From Chondrosia reniformis (Eukaryota; Porifera; Demospongiae; Chondrillida; Chondrillidae): a stretch of DNA of 64,000 bases. Location of the stretch: contig OX359199.1 in NCBI GenBank assembly GCA_947172415.1, positions 3,622,001 through 3,686,000 on the forward strand, given 5' to 3'. The notes beneath the pieces were generated by a model that saw only the letters and a program-made list of their open reading frames with translations, was not told the origin of the DNA and searched no databases. Shown piece after piece: positions 17,611 to 63,750 of the stretch; within the stretch, counting starts at the first letter, position 1; the number at the start of each line of letters is the position of its first letter. Both the position numbers and the translations under genes were made by a program.

Positions 17611-18025
17611 ATGGTATATTTAAGTAACCATCCTGTAGCTGGTAATATGCAGAGTATTTAAGGTTTTATTATATCAAATGCTATGGTCATCATACGTACA
17701 TGCATTATCTATGCAATCTCTGCCTTATGGGTGGAGCCAATAAAGGCCTCATTAGCCATGGTGATCAACATCATGTCCGTTTCCTATTGAATTTTGGTAA
17801 ATTGACTTCTTCAAAGTGGCAGAGCATTTTTAAGGGGAGACAACGTCACATCCGCATGCACTTACGTCATGAAATAAGGCCGATATGAATAAAATTGCGC
17901 ATGCGTACAAAGGCACCAAAAATGCGTGAGATTCGTACGTTCTTGTTTGGAGATATTTTAGAAAGAAAGGAATTGTTCAGGTTTGAGGGTATTTCATCCA
18001 ATCGTGGTTCAGAAGTAATTCGAAA

Positions 18026-18215
18026 GTAAAGGGGTGGGGCAGTACACAGAGGGGTGGGGCAGTTCACAGAGAGGTGGGGCAGTTCACAGAGGGATGGGGC
18101 AGTTCACAGAAGTGTGTGGCAGTTAACAGAGGGGTGTGGCAGTTCACTGAGGGGTGGGGCAGTTCACTGAGGGGTGGGGCAGTTCAGAGAAGGGTTGGGG
18201 TAGTTCACAGCCCTT
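18026..18215. repeat. 20-bp minisatellite array 1
   Basis: About nine units of GGGGTGGGGCAGTTCACAGA and variants (GTACACAGA, GTTAACAGA). The same monomer forms three further arrays in this window, at 24.8, 26.2 and 37.6 kb. A 20-nt unit leaves all frames open over long spans, so frames such as MGQFTEGWG are artefacts. Confidence 0.95.
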
Positions 18216-18639
18216 TTAATTGGAATGAGTGCTTAGGGTGAGATGTTTGTTGAATATATTAACTTATTACGACGATGGGGCAGTACACACAAGTTAAATT
18301 ATACAACTTTCCATTTCCATGAAATGAAATTCTGACATATGAATGGTTTTCACTGTAACAGCGTATGACAATGGTTGGATGCAAATAACATGTTTTGGTA
18401 GGATTTGTGTCTGAGCCTGCACTAATTGAATAGAATTTTCTTTGAGAATTACAATGCCTTCGATCTACGTACATACATATGTATGTCAGAATGCCATTTC
18501 ATTATCATATCTTTTTTCAGACACTTCTTAGGCAAGGAATAAGGAAAATGGATGCTGAATAAAGCTAAAGGATACCAGGTTCTTCTAGATTAGTGACAGG
18601 CTTCATTATTGAAATAAAATATTAGATCTCTGTGGGCTA

Positions 18640-24667: not shown

Positions 24668-24778
24668 TTCTCTTCTCCACAAATAGTAATAAACCGAATC
24701 TGCTCTTAGAACTTGTCTTTACTTTCGAACCTCAACCCTAAAATGGGTAAAAAAGGATGAATTGATGCTGAAAGGGGT

Positions 24779-25385
24779 ATGGCAGTAAACAGAGGGGTGG
24801 GGCAGTTCACAGAGGGGTGGGGCAGTTCACCGAAGGGTGGGGCAGTTCACAGAGGGATGGGACAGCTCACAGAGGGGTGGAGCAGTTCACAGAAGAGTGA
24901 GGCAGTACACAGAGGGGTGGGGCAGTTCACAGAGGGGTGGGGCAGTTCACAGAGGGGTGGGGCAGTACACAGAGGGGTGGGGCAGTTCACAGAAGGGTGA
25001 GGCAGTACACAGAGGGGTGGGGCAGTTCACAGAGGGGTGGGGCAGTTCACAGAGGGGGGGACAGTTCACAGAGGGGTGGGGCAGTACACAGAGGGGTGGG
25101 GCAGTACACAGAGGGGTGGGGCAGTTCACAGAGGAGTGGTGGGGCAGTACACAGAAGGGTGGGGCAGTTCACAGAGTGGTGGGACAGCTCACAGAAGGGT
25201 GGGGCAGTTCACAGAAGGGTGAGGCAGTACACAGAGGGGTGGGGCAGTTCACAGAGGGGTGGGACAGTTCACAGAGGGGTGGGGCAGTACAGAGAGGGGT
25301 GGGGCAGTAAAACAGAGGGGTGGGGCAGTAAAACAGAGGGGTGGGGCACTTCAGAGGGGTCGGGCCGTACACAGAAGGGTGGGGC
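24779..25385. repeat. 20-bp minisatellite array 2 (largest)
   Basis: About 30 units of GGGGTGGGGCAGTTCACAGA with GTACACAGA, AGCTCACAGA and GTAAAACAGA variants. The left flank (ACCCTAAAATGGGTAAAAAA, then GATGAATTGATGCTGAAA) is shared with arrays at 26.2 and 37.6 kb. Overlapping frames up to 157 residues arise from the repeat and are not genes. Confidence 0.95.
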
Positions 25386-25389
25386 AATT

Positions 25390-25545
25390 TAGTTAAGTTT
25401 CGTAAACTCATACTCGTAGGCAAACAGAAAATGACTAGCAACTACATGGGCACAGTCAGTAGGGATATCTACTCTTTGCTTAAAACAGAACTGTCAACAC
25501 ATACATAAATGTTGTCCAGGTCATTAAAGAGCTCTACATGGGTGA
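25390..25545 (-). pseudogene. Second copy of the reverse transcriptase fragment
   Basis: Matches 23752-23910 (TTAAGTTTCGTAAACTCATA, then GTCATTAAAGAGCTCTAC). The same DLDNIYV and DSSVLSKE coding traces are visible on the - strand. It abuts the minisatellite on one side and the GGAT repeat on the other. Confidence 0.65.
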
Positions 25546-25866
25546 GTGGATGGGTGAGTGGATGGATGAGTGGGAGGATGGATGGATGAGTGGGAGGATG
25601 GATGGATGAGTTGGAGGATGGATAGATGAGTGGGAGGATGGGTGGATGAGTTGGAGGATGGATAGATGAGTGGGAGGATGGGTGGATGAGTTGGAGGATG
25701 GATAGATGAGTGGGAGGATGGGTGGATGAGTTGGAGGATGGATAGATGAGTGGGAGGATGGATAGATGAGTGGGAGGATGGGTGGATGGATGGATGAATG
25801 AGTGGATATATGGATGGATGGATGAATGGATAAGTGGGTGGAGGAGTGGGAGGATGGTGGGTGGGT
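25545..25866. repeat. GGAT/GAGT-type complex tandem repeat
   Basis: Irregular 4-bp based repeat (GGATGGATGAGTGGGAGGAT and variants) with a higher-order unit of about 30 bp. Pro/His/Ser/Thr-rich open frames on the - strand simply translate the repeat. Confidence 0.95.
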
Positions 25867-25926
25867 TAACGGATGCATTCACTAACATTCCTATTCCTAG
25901 GCCTTCCTAAGTAGACATGCATTTGC

Positions 25927-26122
25927 CTGATCAAAAGCTCAGTTGACTTTTGGTAAACGACGAATCTCTCTTAGAGCAACAATTCCTGGCCTGTAACGAT
26001 GAGGCTTCTTGACTCCTGTTGCTGGTGCACTCTTTCTGGTTGCTTTGGTCGCAAGCTGCTTCCTGGGTGCCTTGCCTCGATTAAATTGTAGATTTACGAG
26101 CCGTCTGCTTTGTACGAGCCAT
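25927..26122 (-). pseudogene. H3: Histone H3 N-terminal pseudogene, copy 2
   Basis: ATG at 26122 gives [12 protein letters not shown] and then a stop caused by an insertion of about 8 nt (AATTTAAT region). After the insertion the frame resumes as [19 protein letters not shown] and runs to VALREIRR, with the same extra T before the YQKSTELLI codons as copy 1. The boundary corresponding to copy 1's GTAAGT reads GCAAAT. The insertion is shared with copy 3 at 35.7 kb. Confidence 0.85.
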
Positions 26123-26224
26123 TTCCCTTCTCCACAAATAGTAACAAGCCGAATCTGCTCTTAGAACTTGTCTTTACTTTCGAACCTCAACCCTAAAATG
26201 GTTAAAAAGATAAATTGATGCTGA

Positions 26225-26405
26225 AAGGGGTATGGCAGTACACAGAAGGGTGGGGCAGTACACAGAGGGGTGGGGCAGTTCACAGAGGGGTGGGGCAGTA
26301 CACAGAAGGGTGGAGCAGTACACAGAAGGGTGGGGCAGTTCACAGAGGAGTGGGGCAGTTCACAGAGGGGTGGGGCAGTTCACAGAGGGGTGGGGCAGTA
26401 CACAT
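26225..26405. repeat. 20-bp minisatellite array 3
   Basis: About nine units of the GGGGTGGGGCAGT(A/T)CACAGA monomer, with the same left flank (CAACCCTAAAATGG) as arrays 2 and 4. Confidence 0.95.
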
Positions 26406-27604: not shown

Positions 27605-27689
27605 CGGGTGAATAACACTAAAGATAGTTACACTAACACATACATACTTAATAGAATAAGAGATGAAGGTTTATTGAGCTTCAGAAACA

Positions 27690-28140
27690 TGAATTGATAA
27701 ATTCTGAACTTTCGACCCTGAGGTCTTCATCAGCAATATATCACAGTGCTAAAAATAACAGGCGGACATCGGACCATGTCCGATTAAAATCATGCTAGGG
27801 GCGGTCAAATAGATCTTCAGTCGGTCATTGGGTCCGGACACTTTTTGTATTATTAGGAAGTACAGTATGCGCTACGTAGATTTAAGAAACGCCTGCTCGA
27901 TTGAGATTTTTGAGCGAGGCACTCGGCGAGAAGAGTGCCAACGAGTGGTATTCATTCATACCACTCGCCGTTTCACTCGATTGGCGATTTACAAGGTCGA
28001 GATTTTGTCGAGACTTCTACAATAATTTCCGACCAAAAAAAGCAAATGTCCAAGCAAATCCTAATTCTTATTTTAAGCACTGATATCATATATTGCTGAT
28101 GAAGACCTCAAGGTCGAAACGTTCAGAATTCAGCTGTAAG
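27690..28140. ncRNA. Inverted pair of hammerhead-like motifs
   Basis: At 28096-28120 (+) the sequence CTGATGA, then GACC-UCAA-GGUC, then GAAAC has the conserved hammerhead ribozyme core (CUGANGA, stem II, GAAA). The reverse-complement counterpart is at 27710-27733 (GAAAG instead of GAAAC). The two lie in imperfect inverted repeats of about 55 bp (AAATTCTGAAC...CAGCAATATAT) flanking about 330 bp. Such cores are known from Penelope-like retroelements and retrozymes. Stems I and III and the cleavage site could not be established by eye, so catalytic activity is unproven. Confidence 0.45.
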
Positions 28141-40908: not shown

Positions 40909-42263
40909 GGCACTCGAGGAGAATATTGATCATTTGCTGAGTAGGAGGCCTCAGAAGCAAAATAGATTCCTTTGCCATAAATAGCACCTTTAGAAAGACA
41001 GAAAGTAATTTCTTTAAATGACATGTCTGGTCCAGCGGAGAAGAAGAAAACTAGTATCCTCACTAGGTTTAGTTCCCTATATAGGCCTTTACTCTAAAGT
41101 AGATGTAGCATCTAAGAAAATTGTGTTATTACATTTACTTACCAACATTTTCACCTGCCATTCAATAAGGAAATCCATTTCTGTTGATGCTCTTTGTGAC
41201 TTCTCCTTTGCAGCCATGATACAGAGTTCGCTCAACAGTCGCATCACTGAGAGAACGCCGTAATGCTTCAAGGTTTGTCTTAAAAGCTGCCCACAAATGT
41301 GGGTTTTGAATTCTTTCTATTTTCTCAATTTTTGACCAAGGACGGTTCATCCCTGATACGTTAGTGTCCTTTGGATGCATGGAACGGCAGAACTCATTCT
41401 CAACCTCTTGGTACTCCTTGTCATTGGGATCCAGTTGAAAGGATACAAAGTGGTCATTCTTCAATGCTTCATAATCCATAGGATCCCAAGATAATGGATA
41501 GTCTACAAAATATAGTCATTTCATTAAGTATAGGAAGGTGCTTAGATTGAAATAGACATCTTCACATAGTGGGAGATTTTGGTGGGAGAATATTTTCACA
41601 AATTTCATGGATAAATTGCAATTCATCAAAATATTTAGTATATATATAAGGGCAACTGCAGCACAATCTGAATGATTTCAGCAATAAAAGCATCAAATAT
41701 TCCTGTATTTTGGCCATATATTTTGTAAAAAATATTTCCAAGACTATATATACAGTATTTTCCCTCAATCATAAGATTTGACACTAATAGATTTTCATTA
41801 GGGTCTGTTTATCATAAAGACCAACACTCAATATTAAAAAAGCTATTGACTGCATCTATTTACTATTTACTAATGACATGTACGTACATCATCATTGGCC
41901 TATGAGTATAATGCCATTCACAAACGGGAAACTTAAAACTAACCTTCATTGACACTAGTCCTTTTTATGCAAACATTTGGAAGTTCTATCATCCTCTTTA
42001 GATCAAGCAGTGATTTAATACACTGCCCCATCTGGGCCAGGTCTTCTGGTGATCTGAAGTGGAAGACATGTTTAAAAGAGCAGTCAGCAGGGGCTGGACT
42101 GGCTAGGAAGTCACCAACTGCGACTGCATTGTTAATGGTCTGAGCTTCACTGTCGCTTATTATGTGAACAACTGCATCTGTATCATGCTCACAATCAAGT
42201 CGTCCTTTCACTGTGCTAAATGTCAAATTTCCAACCTTTTAGAAGCTAAGGTTTCATTAACTA
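40909..42263. repeat. Right arm of 1.36-kb inverted duplication
   Basis: Reverse complement of 1-1356, covering the last part of macro domain 2 to the middle of the PARP catalytic domain, introns included. Because the arm is embedded in a longer, collinear PARP14-like gene here, this side looks ancestral and the left side the copy. Confidence 0.95.
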
Positions 42264-54299: not shown

Positions 54300-55315
54300 A
54301 CCCTGGATGTATGTACTATATACGTACACCTACGTATAAGTCTCCTAACTATAATTCTATAACTGATAGAAGCAATACTATTACATAATCTCCTTCAGGC
54401 ATAAGATTACCACTGCTTCAATGCTATATGTACAAACAGTAGGAATCACAAATTGCATAATCAGAACTAAGCATTACATTTAGTCCTGACAAATTAGTTT
54501 AGTACAAACTCAGTGGTCAGTTCCATTTAGCTTATGCAATCAACACAACCCAGTGTAAACCGAAAACAGTAGACATTGTGTTACTGAAAAGGTACTGAAA
54601 GTTTAGGGGAACTTTCAATGTATATAGCTCGTATAACCATCTACAAGTTAATTAAAAAATCTTTTAAAATGATTTTAGAAGTAGGGATGGCAGAGCTGCA
54701 ACAGCATGACTAGCACATCTGGAAGAAGTAATGAAATAAGATAATGATCATGTGATAAGGCTAACCATACAGAAGTGGCGTACTGAAATTTAAGCAACTT
54801 TAAACCAACACACCATTTCCGTGCTTAGGCATACCATGATAGCTGAAGTATGGTTGGATGATCTGCCAAAGTGAATCGGGGAATCTTTCAATGTAAATAG
54901 CTAACATATACATCTGTAGACATACACTCTCTTAACTGGAAATAGATTTTTATTCAATACATATAAACTGTAAAACAAGGAGTTCAAGTTTAAAAAACTC
55001 GTGGGGCGCCAGGCGCCCCTAAGTAAACTCAAACTACTTGGCTGGTTCTCATAGATATACGGTTAACAGATTTCCGATCGACTCTTGCTGGCCGTCAATT
55101 TTTCAAGGCCATATCTCGTAGAAAACGTTTTTGCGCAAGCTCTACGTTACATAGTATTAGTAAGGGTGGTTTTTAAGTCCATTTCGTTCGTTCAAGGTTC
55201 TACGCTAAGGAAGAGAAAGCTAATTTTAAGCTAGAAAACGAAAGCTAGCCGAACGTCCGCCATTTTTTGACAGATATATACATATATATACCTTAGTATA
55301 TTGTAACTTGTACTG
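54300..55315. other. No gene seen
   Basis: AT-rich, with a small GC patch at 55005-55020 (GGGGCGCCAGGCGCCCC, a perfect short dyad) beside a dispersed AACTACTTGGC motif. No exon is supported. Confidence 0.4.
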
Positions 55316-55319
55316 TATA

Positions 55320-55795
55320 TAAGTACTTACACAGTGCAAGTTACAAATTTATACACAGATGCAAGTGACTCCCAAGATAATCACACTGAGGTATATAATA
55401 TAATATGGATGCAAATGACTCCCAAAATAGTCACAATCAGGTATATTAAATGCTACAAGACTTTAGCCACACTGAAATTCTCAACTGCTGCATACAGAGT
55501 AGTAGTCTCTACAGATCATATAAGGTTAAACACATGGCCTTCCAATTACCTTTTCACACCTTAGTATAGACTGAAGATGATGCATCTGCATGCCATTATC
55601 AGCAAAAATTCCCGTCTCATGCAGGGGGTCTCAGCCAATAATCAACGCAGATTTGACTTGCCTTGAGTGTGAGCTAGGAGTACCGTTGGTTGCTTGCATG
55701 CATTCACATAAACAACAGGGTGAGAGACAATTTGGTAACTTGCACACAAGGGACATTGTTCATGAAATAAATTAAAGGCCCCAGCCTTTATATAT
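55320..55795. repeat. Half-copy of palindromic family F1
   Basis: Diverged copy of the left arm of the 57700-58510 palindrome, in the same orientation (ATTACCTTTTCACACCTTAG, GAAGATGATGCATCTGCATG, CACAAGGGACA). The mirrored arm is absent. Confidence 0.75.
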
Positions 55796-56065
55796 ATATA
55801 TACTACACATGGACAATTGCAAGTAAAAATATATTAATATATATACTTGCATCCGTGTATAAATTTGTAACTTGCACTGTATAGTATACTTGATTGTATT
55901 AATTATTATCTATTGTAATTGCACTGTATATAAAAGTATACCTTTGCTGGGGCTAGCAATATACTGAGAGATTGACTATATGTACTGTATGAGCTTGCAC
56001 GCACGCATATTTATCCAAATCCACCCCTACGTATCCAATTACACTCCTGCATACGTACGTACACA

Positions 56066-57290
56066 CATGGATAGGTAAAAATATTAACAGAAAAAAAAAG
56101 AAGAGATGACAAAGCTTAAAGTACCAAAGTTTTACTACGATCGTCTAAACGAATTTATTTTATTTATTTTACATCAATATACAGCAACAATCCTGCCTTA
56201 AACTTAACATGAACGTATACAAATACGCTTTATCTAACCTTCGCTACAACTCGCTTATTCCGTAGCTCCTTCTCGTAGGAGAGCGTCGACTTGTCATAGC
56301 CGTTCACGAAAGGGATGATCTTCTTTAACAACGAGGCGGTGACGTTTTCGCAACGTCACTAGATTCACTAAATGTTTACGGAGCGATATACGAGAGGTGT
56401 TGGTGACGCACTAGAGAAACATCATAATACATCACCAGATTGCACAATCGTAAACTTGCATTCTTCATTATATCTTGATTATTTTGCAACTTTAATTAAG
56501 CAAAACTTCGCCAGACGTTTCCTATGCACATGTACCATGATATATGTCAGTTTCACAGTTATCTGACAAATTGAAATTTTTTATTAATATAACACATTGT
56601 TTGAATATAAATTTTCCATAGGCTTTCTGTAGTCCTATGGCCTTTTATATGCAGACTTTGTCCTCCGTTTTCTAACAAACGGAGGCCTAAATAAGAAATC
56701 CTTTAATTTAAAACGAGTTTGCCATAGGATTATAGAAAAGCTATAGAAAATTTATATTGAAACCAAGTGTTATATTAGTAAAAAATTTCAATTTTTCAGA
56801 TAACTGTGAAACCGACATATATCATGGTACATGTTTATGACAAACGTCTGGCGAAGTTTTGCTTAATTAAATGAGCAAAATAATCAAGATATAATGAATT
56901 CAAGGCTACGATTGCGCAATCTGGTGATGTGTGGTGATGTTCCTCTGATGCGTTGCGAACACCTCTCGTATATCTCTCCGTACACATTTAGTAAAAAATC
57001 ATGTGACGTTCCGAAAACGTCACCGCCTCGTTGCTAAAGAAGATCATCCCTTTGTGACGGCTATGACAAGTCGACGCTCTCCTACGAGAAGGAGCTAGCG
57101 AACAGGCGAGTTGTAGCGAAGGTTAGATAAAGCGTTTTTGTATACGTCCCCGTCAAGTTTGAGGCAGAGTTGTTCCTATATTGATGCGAAAGACTGAATT
57201 CGTTTGGTCGACCGTATTACTTTGGTAATTTAAGTTCTGTCTTCTCTTCTTACGTTATCTGTTAATGTTTTTACTTGTCCATGTGTAGGA
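56066..57290. repeat. Large palindromic element F2
   Basis: Two arms of about 570 bp (56066-56640 and 56721-57290) are complementary along their length with scattered mismatches, around a spacer of about 80 bp that holds its own hairpin (CCTCCGTTTTC...AACGGAGG). Each arm has a trace of an open frame (GYDKSTLSYEKEL..NKRVVAKVR and a stop, read outward) also present in the copy at 58.9-59.6 kb. The outer ends begin CACATGGA. No known domain. It may be an inverted dimer of an element that elsewhere exists singly. Confidence 0.8.
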
Positions 57291-57320
57291 ATAAGGAGTG
57301 TTTGTTGCAATCATTATGAG

Positions 57321-57480
57321 AATAAAGCCTTGTTGAGTTTAAGCAACATGAATTTACAAATTTCCTATTTGTACTAAATTGTATTCCCATTCCTCATGTA
57401 TTGCTGATGAAGACCTCTGTTTTGAAACGTCCAGAATTAGTAATTTCATGTTGCTGACGTTCAACAAGGCTTTATTCTTA
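57321..57480 (+). ncRNA. Hammerhead-like retroelement unit adjoining F2
   Basis: Closed by complementary ends of about 30 nt (GAATAAAGCCTTGTTGA...CAACATGAA and its complement at 57447-57480). Inside, CTGATGA at 57404-57410 and GAAAC at 57424-57428 bracket a short possible stem II (AGAC/GUUU), the layout of a hammerhead ribozyme core. The flanking strand GAATTTACAAATTTCC is partly complementary to the strand after GAAAC, which could form another stem. An inverted copy is at 58712-58872. Resembles non-autonomous retrozymes or Penelope pseudo-LTR ribozymes. Activity is not demonstrated. Confidence 0.45.
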
Positions 57481-57699
57481 TCCATGTGTAATACATACAG
57501 TAACGAAATTGCTCATAGTGAATGTCTATAACTATAGTGAAATACTTTGTTAGCTAATTACACTCAAGTACACTACACAGTGCAATATATATAAGTACAC
57601 ACATGGATAAGAATAAAGCTTAGTTGAACGTCAGCAACACGAAATATATAAGTATATACAGTAATATATATATATATAAAATACTAAAATTACAGTCAA

Positions 57700-58510
57700 G
57701 TACTACACAGTACAAGTTACAAATTTAAGAGGGCCAAGTGACCCCTATAGGATAATCAGTATTTTAAATAATACGTATAGTTGCAGACTTTCAAATGCTC
57801 AACTACTGCATAGACAGTAGTAGTTGATACAGATCATCCAATTGCAAGGTAGAACACATGGCCTACCAATTACCTTTTCACACCTTAGTATATAGACTGA
57901 AGATGATGCATCTGCATGCCATATATCAACAAAGGCTCCAGTATTAAAGGGGTCTCAGCTAATAACAACAGCAGATTTGATTTGCCTTGTGAGGGAGCTA
58001 AGAACACCGACGGTTGGTTGCATGCATTCGCATAATCAACAGGGTTAGAGACCATTTTGTAACTTGTACACAAGGGACATAAAAGGCCAAGGCCTTTATA
58101 TACGTATGTGATGTCCCTTGTGTACAGGTTACAAAATGTTCTCTAACCCTGTTGATTATGCGAATGCATGCAACCAACCGTCGGTGTTCTTAGCTCCCTC
58201 ACAAGGCAAATCAAATCTGCTGTGGTTATTAGCTGAGACCCCTTTAATAATGGAGCCTTTGTTGATATATGGCATGCAGATGCATCATCTTCAGTCTATA
58301 CTAAGGTGTGAAAAGGTAATTGGTAGGCCATGTGTTCTACCTTGCAATTGAATGATCTGTATCAACTACTAGTCTTAATGCAGTAGTTGAGGATTTCAAA
58401 GCCTGCAACAGTACTAGTGTGACTAAAGTCTTGTACTGTTTAAAATACTGATTATCCTAGGGGTCACTTGGATCTCTTTAAATTTGTAACTTGCACTGCA
58501 TGTGTAGCTA
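57700..58510. repeat. Large palindromic element F1
   Basis: Symmetric about 58095: arms 57700-58079 and 58112-58510. The inner 190 bp of each arm is nearly identical as complement (for example GACTGAAGATGATGCATCTG and its complement), with outer parts more diverged. The 32-nt loop contains AAAGGCCAAGGCCTTT. A single-arm copy is at 55320-55795. Open frames on both arms are mirror translations (NACNQPSVFLAPSQGKSN) with no recognised domain. Confidence 0.85.
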
Positions 58511-58711
58511 GTACTTGATTGTAATTTTAATATTAGTCACTTGGCCCTCTTAAATTTGTAACTTGTACTGTGTAGTACTTGATTGTAATTTTAATATTGC
58601 CAGTAACTTTCACTGTGTAGTGTACTTGAGTGTAATTAGCCTCACTATACTTAAGACATTGACTATGAGCAATTTCGTTATGAGATTCTACTGTACACAT
58701 GGAAAATGTAC

Positions 58712-58872
58712 ACACATGGATAAGAATAAAGCCTTGTTGAACATCAGTAACATAAATTTACTAATTCTGGACGTTTCAACCCGGAAGTCTTCATCAGTAA
58801 TACAGGAATGGGAATATCAAGTAGGAAATTAGTAAATTCTTGTTCCTGAAGCTCAACAAGGCTTTATTCTCA
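58712..58872 (-). ncRNA. Second hammerhead-like unit, inverted
   Basis: Reverse-strand counterpart of 57321-57480: CTGATGA complement at 58791-58797 and GAAAC complement at 58773-58777, with the AATAAAGCCTTGTTGA ends. On the - strand, AATTTACTAATT before the core pairs perfectly with AATTAGTAAATT after GAAAC, a candidate closing stem. It adjoins the F2 half-copy just as the other unit adjoins F2. Confidence 0.45.
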
Positions 58873-58899
58873 TAATGATCGCAACAAACACTCCTAATT

Positions 58900-59555
58900 C
58901 CTACACATGGACAAGTAAAAATATGAACAAAAAGCGTAAGAAGAGAAGACAGAGCTTCAATTACCAAAGTTTTATTAAGGTCGACTAAACAAATTTCTTT
59001 TGCATCAATATAGGGACAATTCTGCCTCAAACTTAACGGAAACGTACACATATACGCTTTATCTAACCTTCGCTACAACTCGTTTATTCCGTAGTTCCTT
59101 CTCGTAGTAGAGCGTCGACTTGTCATAGCCGTTCTCGAAAGGATGATCTTCTTTTGCAACGAGCCCTGACGTTTTCCCAACGTCACATGATAATCCATTA
59201 AATATGTACCGAGCGACATACGAGAGGTGTTGGTGACGCACTAGGCAAACATCATAATACATCACCAGATTGCGCAATAGTAAACTTGTATTCTTCATTA
59301 TATCTTGATTGTTTTGCAACTTTAATTAAGCAAAACTTCGCCAGACGTTTGTCATACACATGTACCATGATATATGTCGGTTTCACAGTGATCTGATCCA
59401 TTGATAATTTTTATTAATATAACACTTGGTTTCAATATAAATTTCATATAGGTTTTCTATAGTCCTATGGCATTTTATATGCAGACTTTGTCCTCTGTTT
59501 TCTACCAAACGGAGACCTAAATGAAAAATCCCTTATTTAAAAATGAGTTTTATAC
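58900..59555. repeat. Half-copy of palindromic element F2
   Basis: Collinear with 56066-56720 (left arm plus the CCTC/TGTTTTCTACCAAACGGAG spacer), with about 10 percent differences by eye. It ends at the spacer, without the mirrored arm. The - strand frame (ENGYDKSTLYYEKELRN to KVR and a stop) is open for 86 codons, longer than in the palindrome. Confidence 0.8.
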
Positions 59556-59694
59556 CCTAAACTTTATGATACTACGCCCATTCTGTTGCTAGGTACTTTC
59601 CTGGAGTCAAATGAATTATTTATATTATATTATTTATTTATATTATTTATATTATATTAGATTATCTTAGTATATTGTAACTTGTACTGTATAT

Positions 59695-59760
59695 ATCCGT
59701 AACATGAAGCCATACATAAATCGCGTTATGAAAACAATAGAGGGGCTGCTAAAAAAGGGT
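59695..59760. repeat. Copy of the DYNC2I1 upstream segment
   Basis: ATCCGTAACATGAAGCCATA to AACAATAGAGGGGCTGC matches the complement of 33060-33125, immediately upstream of the DYNC2I1 start. Another displaced fragment. Confidence 0.7.
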
Positions 59761-60089
59761 CCAATGTATAGCAATAGCACATATGTCAAGTAACATAAAT
59801 TAAAGGAACACTTAAACCATGATACATAATACAAACAGCAGCATACACATACCAAGCTAGCTATCAGTGTATATACTCACGAACCTTTCACTCAATCACT
59901 CCTTACTACTATTATTAGGGTTTCTCTGAGAAATATATCACCAAGGTGGGAAAATACAACATAGCAAAGCTTTGAGGAGCCATCCTAGTTTAATTTGCTA
60001 ATAGTAATTATTGATAATTGACTTTCTTCAAGGGGGAGGGGAAAATATTGAAATTACCCTCACTAAAATGAACCATGAGTACACTGACG

Positions 60090-60345
60090 TACCTTTCGTT
60101 CAATCAGATGGTCCTTACTATCAGCTTTCAGAAGAACAGGTGTCAGCAAACGGTGCAATACACTTTCAAACATTTCATCGGAGTCGGCTAGGGCAATCTG
60201 CCAAAACGCTCTTTCAACTAGTTCTAAAAGTATTCAATGCACGTAACAATAAATATAAACAGAGAAGATGTAGCCTCAGATATATCCTCTCCTTCGGTCA
60301 TACACTGAAGAGTAGCGAGGATGTCTTTCAGAGAAGCTTACCTAT
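60090..60345 (-). CDS. Probable exon of an unknown protein
   Basis: On the - strand an open frame reads SLKDILATLQCMTEGEDISE, continues to FIFIVTCIEYF, and after a 1-nt shift in TTTT continues LELVERAFWQIALADSDEMF...VLHRLLTPVLLKADSKDHLI to a consensus GTACGT donor. About 80 residues, helical and Leu-rich like HEAT-type or telomere/kinase scaffolds, but I cannot name it. The + strand frame at 60011-60406 is the shadow of this exon. The upstream acceptor is weak. Confidence 0.4.
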
Positions 60346-60409
60346 TTCACTTGTCACTGGCTCAGGTTGCCTAAATATACATAAAATGAAACATTCGCAG
60401 TACTGATAG

Positions 60410-61235
60410 CAATTTTCGTGCACAATAATGCTTTAGAAATAAAGATCTAAATATGCAACGTACTTCGTATTTGTTTGGCCGGCCATTTTCTGCTACATGT
60501 ACTATAAAGGGGAAAATCCCTTGGTGCGCTCTAGCATTGGTGCTTTGATCTTGAGCTTTGAAAGTAAGTCATTTACCCCGCTGCAGTGGTCCCAGCTACA
60601 TGCACTCTATAGTCATGCTATTAGAAGACTTAGCTAGTCATATACATAACAATACCATATCTAGTCGAAGAGGAATTTTTAGTGATCAAATATAAACTAA
60701 ATCTTCTTATCTCCTTTTAGGATATAGTGTTGCAAGGGTTAGAGGACTCGTTCAAAGTAATTTTGTACCTCTATTAAAATCATAGCCATGGCAAGTTGAG
60801 ATGGGACTTAACTATATATGTATGATTACATACGTAGTATACGGTGCATAGAACTGTAAAGTGTATGTATTGTAGTAATATTGTTAGTAACTTGTTCATG
60901 ATTGTTATTCAAATAATCCAACACACGCAAACACTCTAATTTAGTAATTTAGCAATGATACAAACCAGTTCAACTAGTAATCAAGCAAATTGTCAAGTAT
61001 ATATAAAGAATGTAGTTCACACTCAACCTATCAGAGAGTACGGTAGTACTCTCTATGTAGGGATGGTACGGGTTGTTTCGTTTTCCCCAAACATTGGTAT
61101 AGGAGCGAAATTCCGAATTAGGCTGAAAATCGCCGAAATGAGACTATGTAGAGTTAAATATAGAACAGCCATGCTATAAATAGGCCTTGAAGGCAAGCGA
61201 CCGTGTATCGTTGGCAAATGAACGAACTTTGAAAT
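60410..61235. other. No gene seen
   Basis: No supportable exon. A 74-residue frame (60955-61179, +) lacks a domain or splice support. Confidence 0.35.
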
Positions 61236-61240
61236 CTCCC

Positions 61241-61295
61241 ATTTTCGTTTTCTTCTTCATCTTCTTCATCTTCTTCTTCATCTTCTTCGCCCGCT
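61241..61295. repeat. TTC/ATC trinucleotide tract
   Basis: CTTCTTCATC-type repeat. The - strand would encode an acidic Glu/Asp run (EEDEEEDEEDEEE), which may be coding, but no exon context was established. Confidence 0.85.
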
Positions 61296-61548
61296 GTAAC
61301 TAAAAAACGAAATAAGCCTTCGGACTACTTCTTAATCGAAATTACTCTAATTTTTCCGAGCTGTATTCTTTTGTAGAAGCGAGAGCGATAACGCTATTAT
61401 TGAGTATGACAGTTTTCATGGCTCCAGAGTCAAGACCTCAATAAATTCGCCATTTTAATGACGTCATAATCAGTCGAAGATTGCGAAACCAAAGTGGTTT
61501 AAAATACAACAAATTCCTAGCTTATGCTCCATTAAAAAGTACAGAAAC

Positions 61549-61791
61549 TAGAGAATAATAAAAATTTTCTACAAAAATAGTGAAGATGTAGGGTTGGCAC
61601 AAAAAGCATAGAAACAAGAAAGGAATGTTACACAGTGAAGCATTAGCTATGCATGAATCCTACAAGCAAGGGTGTTGTATGATTCATGCATAGCTAATGC
61701 TTCACTGTGTAACATTCCTTTCTTGTTTCTATGCTTTTTGTGCCAACCCTACATCTTCACTATTTTTGTAGAAAATTTTTATTATTCTCTA
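61549..61791. repeat. Perfect palindrome, 111-bp arms
   Basis: Arms 61549-61659 and 61681-61791 are exact complements base by base (starting TAGAGAATAATAAAAATTTT). A further 5-6 nearly paired bases leave a loop of about 10 nt. Perfect identity implies very recent origin or active maintenance. The structure ends 66 bp before the last PTP exon's stop codon in genomic order, so it lies in or just beyond that gene's 3' UTR. A transcript would form a long perfect hairpin. Confidence 0.97.
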
Positions 61792-61856
61792 GTATAGTTT
61801 ACAATTAACTACCAAATCAAACAGTCAAGTGTTTATTGTCACCATCTTGCAATTGG

Positions 61857-63750
61857 TTACTTGAAATTGGCATATGTGTCAAAAGACTCCTGATAGCTGA
61901 GAAGTATTTCATGGCACACCTCATAATCGACCTACATTTAATATTCAAGGCATATACTTACATTATGTACTGTTAGTACATGAGTTGTCTAAAAACGTTT
62001 TCCTACATACGTACTCCATCCATTCTATAATGAAAGGCCTGTAGGGAACTAAACCTAGTGAGAGCTTTGGATGAGGATACAGGAGTCTTCTCTTTCTTCT
62101 TCTGCTCTACTGGGTCACAGAGCTTTTTCAAATACCAAGATGAATTATATGTAAAATAGGTTGATTACTATAGACCATAATTTATTTATAATAATTATAT
62201 AAATTACCAAACATGTTACACTATACACATCTTACAGCTGATGACACCATGTGTGGTCTGCTAGCACGGAGAGACTTAACCCTCTGAAATATATCCATCA
62301 TTCCTTCCACTTTGATCCTCTCAATTTCAGACATTGCACATAGGAATACCCCAGTCCTTGACATACCATCACTGAAGGAATAAATGTTACGTCAGCCTGT
62401 ATTATACATACCTGTTCATGTTAAATTTATACTAACCAATTAGAATAGGAACTATGTATATATAGCATTATTGAAAAGGAGGTATGTGTTTTTAGAGTTG
62501 TATATGGAATATACATATATTAGTCTAGAAAACATCTATTCTAAGTTTCTTTCCTCAGCCTTAATGATGTCAACTGTAGGAAAATGCATATGGTTTTGTA
62601 GATTATTCATGGCTTATGTTTAGTGCCTAAAAATACACTGAGATACAATATGCATAGAAAGCTATATACATATATATGTAGGTTGTTATTGTTTAATTGC
62701 AATGTATCTAGGTTCAGTGTGTGTGCTTGCTCTACTGTGTATGTATGTATAAGAGACGTACTCGCACATGATGATCACTGGAGCATGTGTTTTGTAGTGT
62801 GTCCTCTCAGTGTCACCCATCATTGTCAGAAGACCTGGTGTCCTTGGATGATCATCCCTTGGCCAACCATAGTAATGGTACAGATGCACAGTCAGTGTCA
62901 CCTTCTCGGTAGTCCTCTATATACGTATTTACCTAGGTAAATATAATTTATTCATATTTATATGTACGTACATACTGTATATTTGTACGTACATACATAT
63001 GTACCATTTATATGAGTGTAGAGCTACATATGGAGTCAGTTTAATGTGCATTATATGTTTGGGCTTCATTTAGGGGACAGGGGCATTCCTACCCTGTTAA
63101 ATCTGATACCCCCTTGGTATAAGTAAGTACACTAGGATACCTCCCAGTAACAAGTTTTGTCCATTATTGATTGGTGAAATATGTACTTGTGTGAAGTTAC
63201 AAGCTTATACAGTGTAATTTAAAACTTTTCTCAGGAACCCATGCCCCAGACCTCCTTATACATATGGACAACAAGGGAATCCCCGCTCCCAACATTTTCA
63301 TGAAAACTGTTTTCACCCCTCCACCCTTGATATTTTTGTTAATGAAGCCCTGATTATACACTTACATTTGAATAATCTGTTACTGTCAGCTTATACATAT
63401 TAAAGTCTATTTCTTTGCTTTTAAAATTTAGATCAACTTCTATGTCACCAAGCTGCATCTTATTAGTCTCTTCCACTGGCCAAAAGTGACTACAAGTTGA
63501 CTGTATGGAAACAAAGTGAGTCCCTATAATAGTCTCTGCAGTACATTACAGTGCAGTTATTAGGATAGGAATTGGATGCAGGAGTAGTATTTCACAAGCA
63601 ACTGTGTATTCTCTCACTTACCTCCTCTGCTTCAACAAAGTTGGCCAGTACAATTATAGTTGGACATTTGTTGTTTGCAATGACTTTCCAGATATCTTCT
63701 GTGTGTTTCATTGGTGCTTGTGCAGCAATATATTTCTTGCCACCATATCC
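61857..63750 (-). CDS. Receptor-type tyrosine phosphatase, C-terminal phosphatase domain
   Basis: Exons on the - strand: about 63622-63750 (GGKKYIAAQAPMKHTEDIW, CPTIIVLANFVEAEE), 63366-63500 (STCSHFWPVEETNK), 62762-62916 (VHLYHYYGWPRDDHP), 62236-62371 and 61857-61931 (TYANFK and a stop). These are ordered PTP motifs. The loop assembled across the 62762/62371 junction reads CDDGMSRTG, so CX5R is intact. The usual WPDxG is WPRDD, lacking aspartate at the normal position, which is typical of weak or inactive D2 domains. The ending TYANFK and the stretch LRASRPHMV are those of receptor PTPs. The rest of the gene is beyond 64000. Confidence 0.85.
62036..62115. repeat. Family D1 copy in a PTP intron
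   Basis: GGCCTGTAGGGAACTAAACC then GCTTTGGATGAGGATACAGG, matching 51480-51560. It lies between the last two PTP exons. Confidence 0.75.
62920..63360. other. PTP intron
   Basis: Lies between PTP exons at 62762-62916 and 63366-63500. AT-rich with GTAC/ATAC-rich dyads near 62960-63000. No separate gene. Confidence 0.5.

Follow-up and report, generated by a model that had tools for sequence, protein, structure and literature searches.

What are the composite palindromes with hammerhead-like units that occupy 55-60 kb of a 64,000-nucleotide stretch from the sponge Chondrosia reniformis (assembly GCA_947172415.1, contig OX359199.1, positions 3,622,001 to 3,686,000; hereafter the window), and does a self-cleaving RNA drive their spread? 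A sequence-only reading had suggested that a palindrome, F2, and the hammerhead-like unit next to its arm form one fold-back retroelement. On comparison with the genome (117.4 Mb in 15 contigs, the window lying on C11), we consider it most likely, at a probability of about 0.6, that the segment is built from four or more copies of a single dispersed mobile repeat, TA-targeted and devoid of long reading frames, stacked between the halves of T-like repeats, and that the hammerhead-like unit is a passenger within it. What stands of the earlier reading is a multicopy mobile sequence that contains a fold-back and carries a hammerhead-like unit: modules F (56700-57290), H (57291-57490), J (57491-57680) and K (57681-58095), mapped on 36 loci, some of them overlapping, occur together in most long copies.

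The structures first described in the window are present. F2 (56063-57286) is self-complementary at 81.6% and a larger palindrome (56720-59472) at 81.0%. The F2 arm is followed by a hammerhead-like unit with complementary ends, 47 nt long and 85% complementary in the first unit (57316-57362/57435-57481) and 87% in the second (58720-58766/58827-58873). The arm-unit junction at 57.05-57.49 kb reappears inverted at 58.7-59.13 kb, within the 58.7-59.2 kb originally proposed, with arms of 88% (57057-57193/58996-59132) and 90% (57219-57371/58818-58970), and a perfect 12-bp closing stem, AATTTACTAATT/AATTAGTAAATT, is present in the unit at 58.7 kb. Hammerhead-like cores of the form CTGATGA..GAAAC lie at 57404 (+) and 58797 (-). 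This core pattern exceeds chance, since it has 593 exact matches genome-wide and none in the reversed control. No open frame of 160 amino acids or more was found in 55-60 kb.

Comparison among genomic copies shows that the repeat has one invariant end and a variable other end. From the cut end to the invariant end, long copies are ordered as part of H or J, then K, K', J', H', F' and the tail. Homology limits were sharp in 6 of the 20 ten-kb loci, namely the ones that served as references, every one being set against the remaining 19. In all 20 loci the invariant end, ..TTAGTATATTGTAACTTGTACTG, borders on TATATA (..TTGTAACTTGTACTG-TATATA), with unrelated sequence beyond; this end was found at 1378 genomic sites with at most 3 mismatches, against 0 for the reversed control; loci L038-L041 and L070-L073 were chosen from the list of these ends. 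In long copies the cut end is spread across about 300 nt and comes after a TA run. This run exceeded the one at the invariant end in each of the 17 loci measured (L010, L012-L018 and L020-L028), by about 10 nt (median 17 versus 7 nt; the invariant-end runs of L017 and L024, missed by the search, had been given a score of 0 but measure about 6 and 4, so that the direction holds). Copies range in length from 26-78 nt to about 2.4 kb, the long ones measuring about 2.1-2.4 kb, and the outer edge of K shows a 15-nt inverted match to the invariant end.

Read against these copies, the window contains the following parts.

54972-55282, minus strand: left flank, half of the target repeat T with its TA-tract landing site; 92.6% over 311 bp to an empty T copy (L048), with uninterrupted T copies elsewhere
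55290-55321, plus strand: ultrashort copy, the last 26 nt of the invariant end and TATATA
55322-56720, plus strand: copy A, divergent and without an intact hammerhead unit; part of K, a K' remnant, F' and part of the tail, with the last ~140 nt missing
56063-57286, no strand: F2 palindrome, best read from other copies as A and B1 tail to tail with the junction at 56720/56721; a TATATA-joined version is in L009
56721-57663, minus strand: copy B1, comprising F, the hammerhead-like unit and J; cut at a TA tract near 57664
57287-57476, plus strand: hammerhead-like passenger in B1, 190 bp; direct repeats 57274-57286 and 57477-57489, 12 of 13 positions identical
57404-57432, plus strand: B1 core, CTGATGA..GAAACGTC, with stem II broken (GACC/TTTT)
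57664-59695, plus strand: copy B2, comprising K, K', J', the unit, F' and the tail, with the invariant end at 59689 and then TATATA; common to C3 by segmental duplication
57680-58598, no strand: internal palindrome K/K' of B2; inner arms 57891-58080/58111-58300 complementary at 98%, outer arms 57680-57742/58536-58598 at 97%
58725-58902, minus strand: hammerhead-like passenger in B2, 178 bp; direct repeats ACACATGGATAAG (58712-58724) and ACACATGGACAAG (58903-58915)
58769-58797, minus strand: B2 core, with the first stem I pair mismatched; antisense, provided that the invariant end is 3'

Support for targeted insertion comes from T, a dispersed repeat in which several copies are inserted. An uninterrupted T site at C2:4761423 is exact against the filled sites L015, L016, L020 and L027, and the best 40 of 746 candidate T copies are uninterrupted, the ranking by score favouring such copies. 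Insertion into TA repeats was likewise seen in the loci compared, together with an empty T site. At the window a T-like half also follows 59695; it matches less well than the left half, and a single T is therefore not claimed there.

Copies also abut one another through TA in all three arrangements: tail to tail (..ACTGTATATACAGT.. with TATATA; L009, L033, L034), head to tail (..ACTG(TA)n and then a head; L011, L013, L022) and head to head (window 57640-57690 and L009). Strict matching gave 33 invariant ends across 21 loci, and 8 of them have another copy within 60 nt; the L009 junction enters this count from both sides, and the loci were chosen for long matches. With 1378 copies, each up to ~1 kb long, spread over 117 Mb, we estimate about 0.4 such abutments by chance. 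Each insertion would leave TA at both ends and so provide new landing sites, and later copies would stack on earlier ones to give composite palindromes. F2 is best read in this way. Both tails are cut at 56720/56721 relative to other copies, which suggests a tail-to-tail pair whose linking TATATA and two tail ends were subsequently deleted. The view of F2 and unit as one fold-back retroelement is not supported, as F2 would be the junction of two copies and the unit sits there as a passenger with 13-bp direct repeats on either side. Window 54858-63000, where the query ended, matches C3:3727000-3736999 (L009) at 95-99% in pieces, indicating a segmental duplication. The duplicates differ inside the stack, L009 keeping tail'-F-K of a divergent copy and the window K'-F'.

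The hammerhead-like unit is a separate passenger, flanked by 13-bp direct repeats and with related units elsewhere that lack the repeat. The B1 flanks are the B2 flanking repeats (ACACATGGATAAG/ACACATGGACAAG) inverted, and other composite copies have the same 13-bp repeats with some changes. The sequence-only reading would have been contradicted by independent occurrence of F2 and the unit, and this was nearly what we observed: 25 of 27 other core-bearing loci, drawn from the neighbourhoods of the 593 sites and all among 100 places listed on C1 and C2, have no F, J or K homology. Only two have any, one of them (L056) being a short match to the TA-rich part of J, and L059 shows no match even to H. 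Direct repeats of at least 13 bp with at most 1 mismatch flank 7 of the 27 units, compared with 25 of 702 swapped pairs, and at 12 bp or more the figures are 8 of 27 and 70 of 702, the control being imperfect because the pairs share family sequence. Perfect flanking repeats were found at L046 (12 bp) and L050 (13 bp). Copy A was considered as the empty site of the passenger and rejected, its flank being ambiguous; in L009 and L034, which lack the unit, a trace of its end persists.

A likely relationship for the passenger is suggested by L037 (C6:3932900-3938400), where a 772-amino-acid frame matches RVT_1 (E 1.9e-10) and GIY-YIG (E 6.8e-5), as in Penelope-like elements, and CTGARGAAGACCCCCAGGGTCGAAACGTTTG, whose stem I is GUCA/UGAC, occurs in the 3' repeats. 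The 3' part of L037 repeats every 615 bp and adjoins a 13-bp minisatellite; two of its three repeats hold converging hammerhead-like cores around a short loop. The minimal core of the passenger (CTGATGA A GAC..GAAACGT, without stem III) is of the L037 type, and minimal hammerheads occur in Penelope-like elements according to two reports (PMC11167929, PMC7229834). Because of this motif type, rather than any traced descent from L037, we file the unit as a putative Penelope-type passenger. Such a passenger would have inserted into an ancestral copy and been amplified along with it, cleavage not being needed for spread. Compared with Penelope-like elements that bear minimal hammerheads (PMC11167929), the passenger shares the L037-type core without stem III but is short and non-coding, and its composite-borne copies are degraded.

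The condition of the core in composite copies speaks against the ribozyme as the driver of spread. Among 34 composite-borne H copies, some of which look like duplicates of each other (for example L018 and L019), the core is interrupted by a four-base CATG insertion in 18, altered in 3 and intact in its seven bases in 13. Of the intact-core copies, seven carry GACCTCTGTTTT, which precludes stem II, and in the other six the first pair of stem I, adjoining the core, is mismatched (pairs read by eye); none of the 34 keeps the core and both stems. The broken core sits in a subfamily with K arms about 99% alike, and its spread would therefore be independent of cleavage by this unit. Covariation lent no support to a hammerhead in 39 distinct units (stem I 0.667 paired versus 0.695 shuffled; stem II 0.885 versus 0.888), in a test that is weak for stem II, whose 5' arm is fixed by the search pattern, and that left out L037 and L059 with their other loop lengths. 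On folding, the 12-bp stem is there, and the minimum-energy fold was not a hammerhead in any of four units folded. The unit in the window is thus probably not a working ribozyme.

Rfam gave no hammerhead match in the window at the gathering score, nor any in a permissive scan of 55.8-60.2 kb, and the label 'hammerhead' would be valid for the window units at motif level only. A permissive scan of ten loci with minimal-type units, L037 among them, returned 27 matches and no hammerhead. Since stand-alone minimal units are missed too, the silence in the window is not decisive and means 'not canonical' rather than 'not a ribozyme'; Rfam was accordingly dropped as a test of stand-alone units. Elsewhere in the genome at least 51 matches to Hammerhead_1 exceed the gathering score (73 scored of 11,921 candidates), with 0 of 14 control genomes passing the cut-off, and canonical hammerheads are therefore recognisable in this genome. 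Tandem canonical hammerheads 354-355 bp apart lie at C3:1599837/1600191 (-), C6:3921765/3922119 (-) and C6:4724360/4724715 (-), and a pair below the gathering score lies 352 bp apart at C6:3372216/3372568. The tandem canonical hammerheads are likely genuine sponge retrozymes. Metazoan retrozymes resemble the window units in being short, non-autonomous and hammerhead-bearing, as PMC7229834 describes them; their hammerheads, however, are canonical, of type I, and sit in small tandem repeats, whereas the window units fall below the Rfam cut-off and are not tandem.

These observations bear on the proposal that fold-back and hammerhead constitute a single non-autonomous retroelement that multiplies by way of processed or circular RNA. 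The modules do travel together, some stand-alone units combine long stems with flanking repeats of 12-15 bp, tandem hammerheads of the canonical type are present in the genome, and L037 and L059 have a well-paired stem I of different sequence. However, F2 is better read as a junction, the core is damaged in most composite copies as counted above, stems I and II show no covariation, and the four folded units prefer other structures. Dimeric or tandem copies typical of retrozymes were also expected, whereas composite copies carry single or inverted units. We consider this explanation very improbable.

For the mobilisation of the repeat we favour a DNA-mediated process resembling that of fold-back transposons, because of the 15-nt inverted match and the TA target; it is the most likely class, with roughly an even chance of being correct. 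Profile searches of the genome returned 124 matches to DDE_3, 8 to MULE and 133 to Helitron. A CAGT end and a TA target are the signature of Tc1/mariner-type elements; the DDE_3 matches include none shown inside a copy. Inspection by eye of 100 listed ends among the 1378 gave no convincing positional link to reverse transcriptase, GIY-YIG, DDE, MULE or Helitron genes. The DDE_3 genes near listed ends were at C2:5005870, 3.6 kb inside an end, and at C2:6140341, 0.7 kb outside one.

A retroposon would account for part of the same evidence. Its RNA would be copied from a fixed 3' end by target-primed reverse transcription at TA tracts to leave 5'-truncated copies, the palindrome arising by snap-back of the complementary DNA. 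The single fixed end with a wide length range, copies that end near the palindrome centre (L033, L035, L036) and abundant reverse transcriptases (150 scored of 1688 candidates) agree with such a process, and it was our first class assignment, demoted to a rival after the inverted end match and L071. That inverted match and the long TA runs at the cut end speak against it. By eye, no reverse transcriptase gene among the 150 matches leads into any of the 100 listed ends: the match at C2:4984952 lies ~1 kb beyond the cut end of the L024 copy on the opposite strand, and that at C7:6027594 ~3 kb beyond the invariant end of the L020 copy. We regard a retroposon as possible but unlikely.

Rolling-circle transposition of a non-autonomous Helitron- or Helentron-type element would likewise give one fixed end, with sloppy termination at the other. 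Large intact Helitron-type genes are present (133 matches, frames up to 2555 amino acids), the targets are AT-rich, and a short inverted subterminal match exists. Helitron ends bear the signs TC..CTRR, which are absent from the invariant end. Two Helitron matches were seen by eye within 10 kb upstream of a listed end in the same orientation (C2:4470380 and C2:5106110), with ~0.8 estimated by chance. This origin appears improbable.

Several points weigh against the stacked, DNA-mobilised repeat that we prefer. The 20 ten-kb loci were chosen for best or long matches, so that counts from them are not a random sample and copy lengths are biased. Shorter copies (L032, L033, L035, L036, L040) are cut without a TA run and resemble truncated retroposons. 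L071, with arms 98% complementary, is the only two-ended candidate and may be two head-to-head copies; it was not accepted as proof of two-ended elements because head-to-head neighbours occur. No transposase was shown within a copy for the DDE_3, MULE and Helitron matches, and the copies compared offered no clean site from before the passenger's insertion. The head-to-head junctions of the window and L009 share B2 by duplication with differing neighbours, and are not independent on B2's side. For B2 itself, a recent jump (99% to C3) was rejected in favour of segmental duplication.

The inner palindrome K/K' belongs to the long copies. In the outer part, arms are 97-100% alike within one copy versus 88-93% between subfamilies (eight arm pairs; nine loci were entered and the L009 pair set aside as a tail-to-tail junction). 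As arms are alike within copies but 7-12% apart between subfamilies, copying of one arm from the other has followed the subfamily split, by either fold-back synthesis or gene conversion. In the inner part (23 pairs) the young subfamily is so uniform that a within- versus between-copy test was uninformative, and the outcome was clearer for the outer arms; the window's own inner K arms are 0.954 alike versus ~0.97 to other copies. A more far-reaching idea is that the repeat represents an element class of its own, one-ended and TA-targeted, in which the palindrome is rebuilt in each copying cycle by fold-back synthesis, passengers are thereby carried into both arms, and ends that recreate the target lead to palindromic arrays, as an animal counterpart of the microsatellite-stacking elements of plants. 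We advance this tentatively and think it rather unlikely.

The closest known systems would be the microsatellite-targeted SaTar and MuTAnT elements of plants. The SaTar report (guayule and rice; PMC5907723) describes copies joined through (TA)n in multi-copy arrays, and internal deletions that fuse neighbours and remove the link. The sponge repeat shares the TA-joined arrays (here the 8 of 33 abutted ends) and the fusing deletions proposed for F2. SaTars are at most 1.7 kb long, have terminal inverted repeats and are assigned to Mutator-like elements, whereas the sponge repeat has an animal host, long copies of the size given above, one end in the loci examined (L071 being a candidate two-ended copy), a large inner palindrome and a captured unit. 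With respect to the Mutator-like trait, none of the 8 MULE matches in the sponge genome is tied to the repeat. MuTAnT of Medicago (PMC4486113) is likewise a fold-back in TA microsatellites with variable TA on both sides and common defective copies (50 of 198 MuTAnT). It differs in its 9-nt target duplications and mudrA-like partner; in the sponge repeat a duplication is unreadable within TA tracts. TA-targeted elements in the literature searched came from plants. No paper was found joining hammerhead ribozyme, Porifera and retrotransposon, and the papers listed on retrozymes, hammerheads and sponges, judged from titles and the beginnings of abstracts, concerned plant retrozymes and viroids, RNA circles and circular RNAs in cancer.

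Other features of the window were also recorded. Within 27656-28130 lie two further hammerhead-like cores, inverted relative to each other, at 27733 (-) and 28096 (+); both have a complete GACC/GGTC stem II. A 1332-nt inverted repeat, 100% complementary, joins 25-1356 and 40909-42240, 39.6 kb apart, and a hairpin at 61547-61793 has 119-nt arms, 99% complementary, around a 9-nt loop. Repeats of 20 bp occur in tandem at 17949-18248 and 24692-26404, and the G+C content is higher (49.5%) at 24-26 kb.

Large palindromes with a ribozyme motif may thus be explicable by ordinary steps, namely self-targeted stacking, nested capture and deletion. Because the arms are so alike within copies, fold-back copying can be tested against gene conversion. 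Should animal elements pile up on microsatellites in the manner of plant SaTars, this would provide a route to palindromes and to local rearrangement, the C11 and C3 duplicates differing inside the stack.

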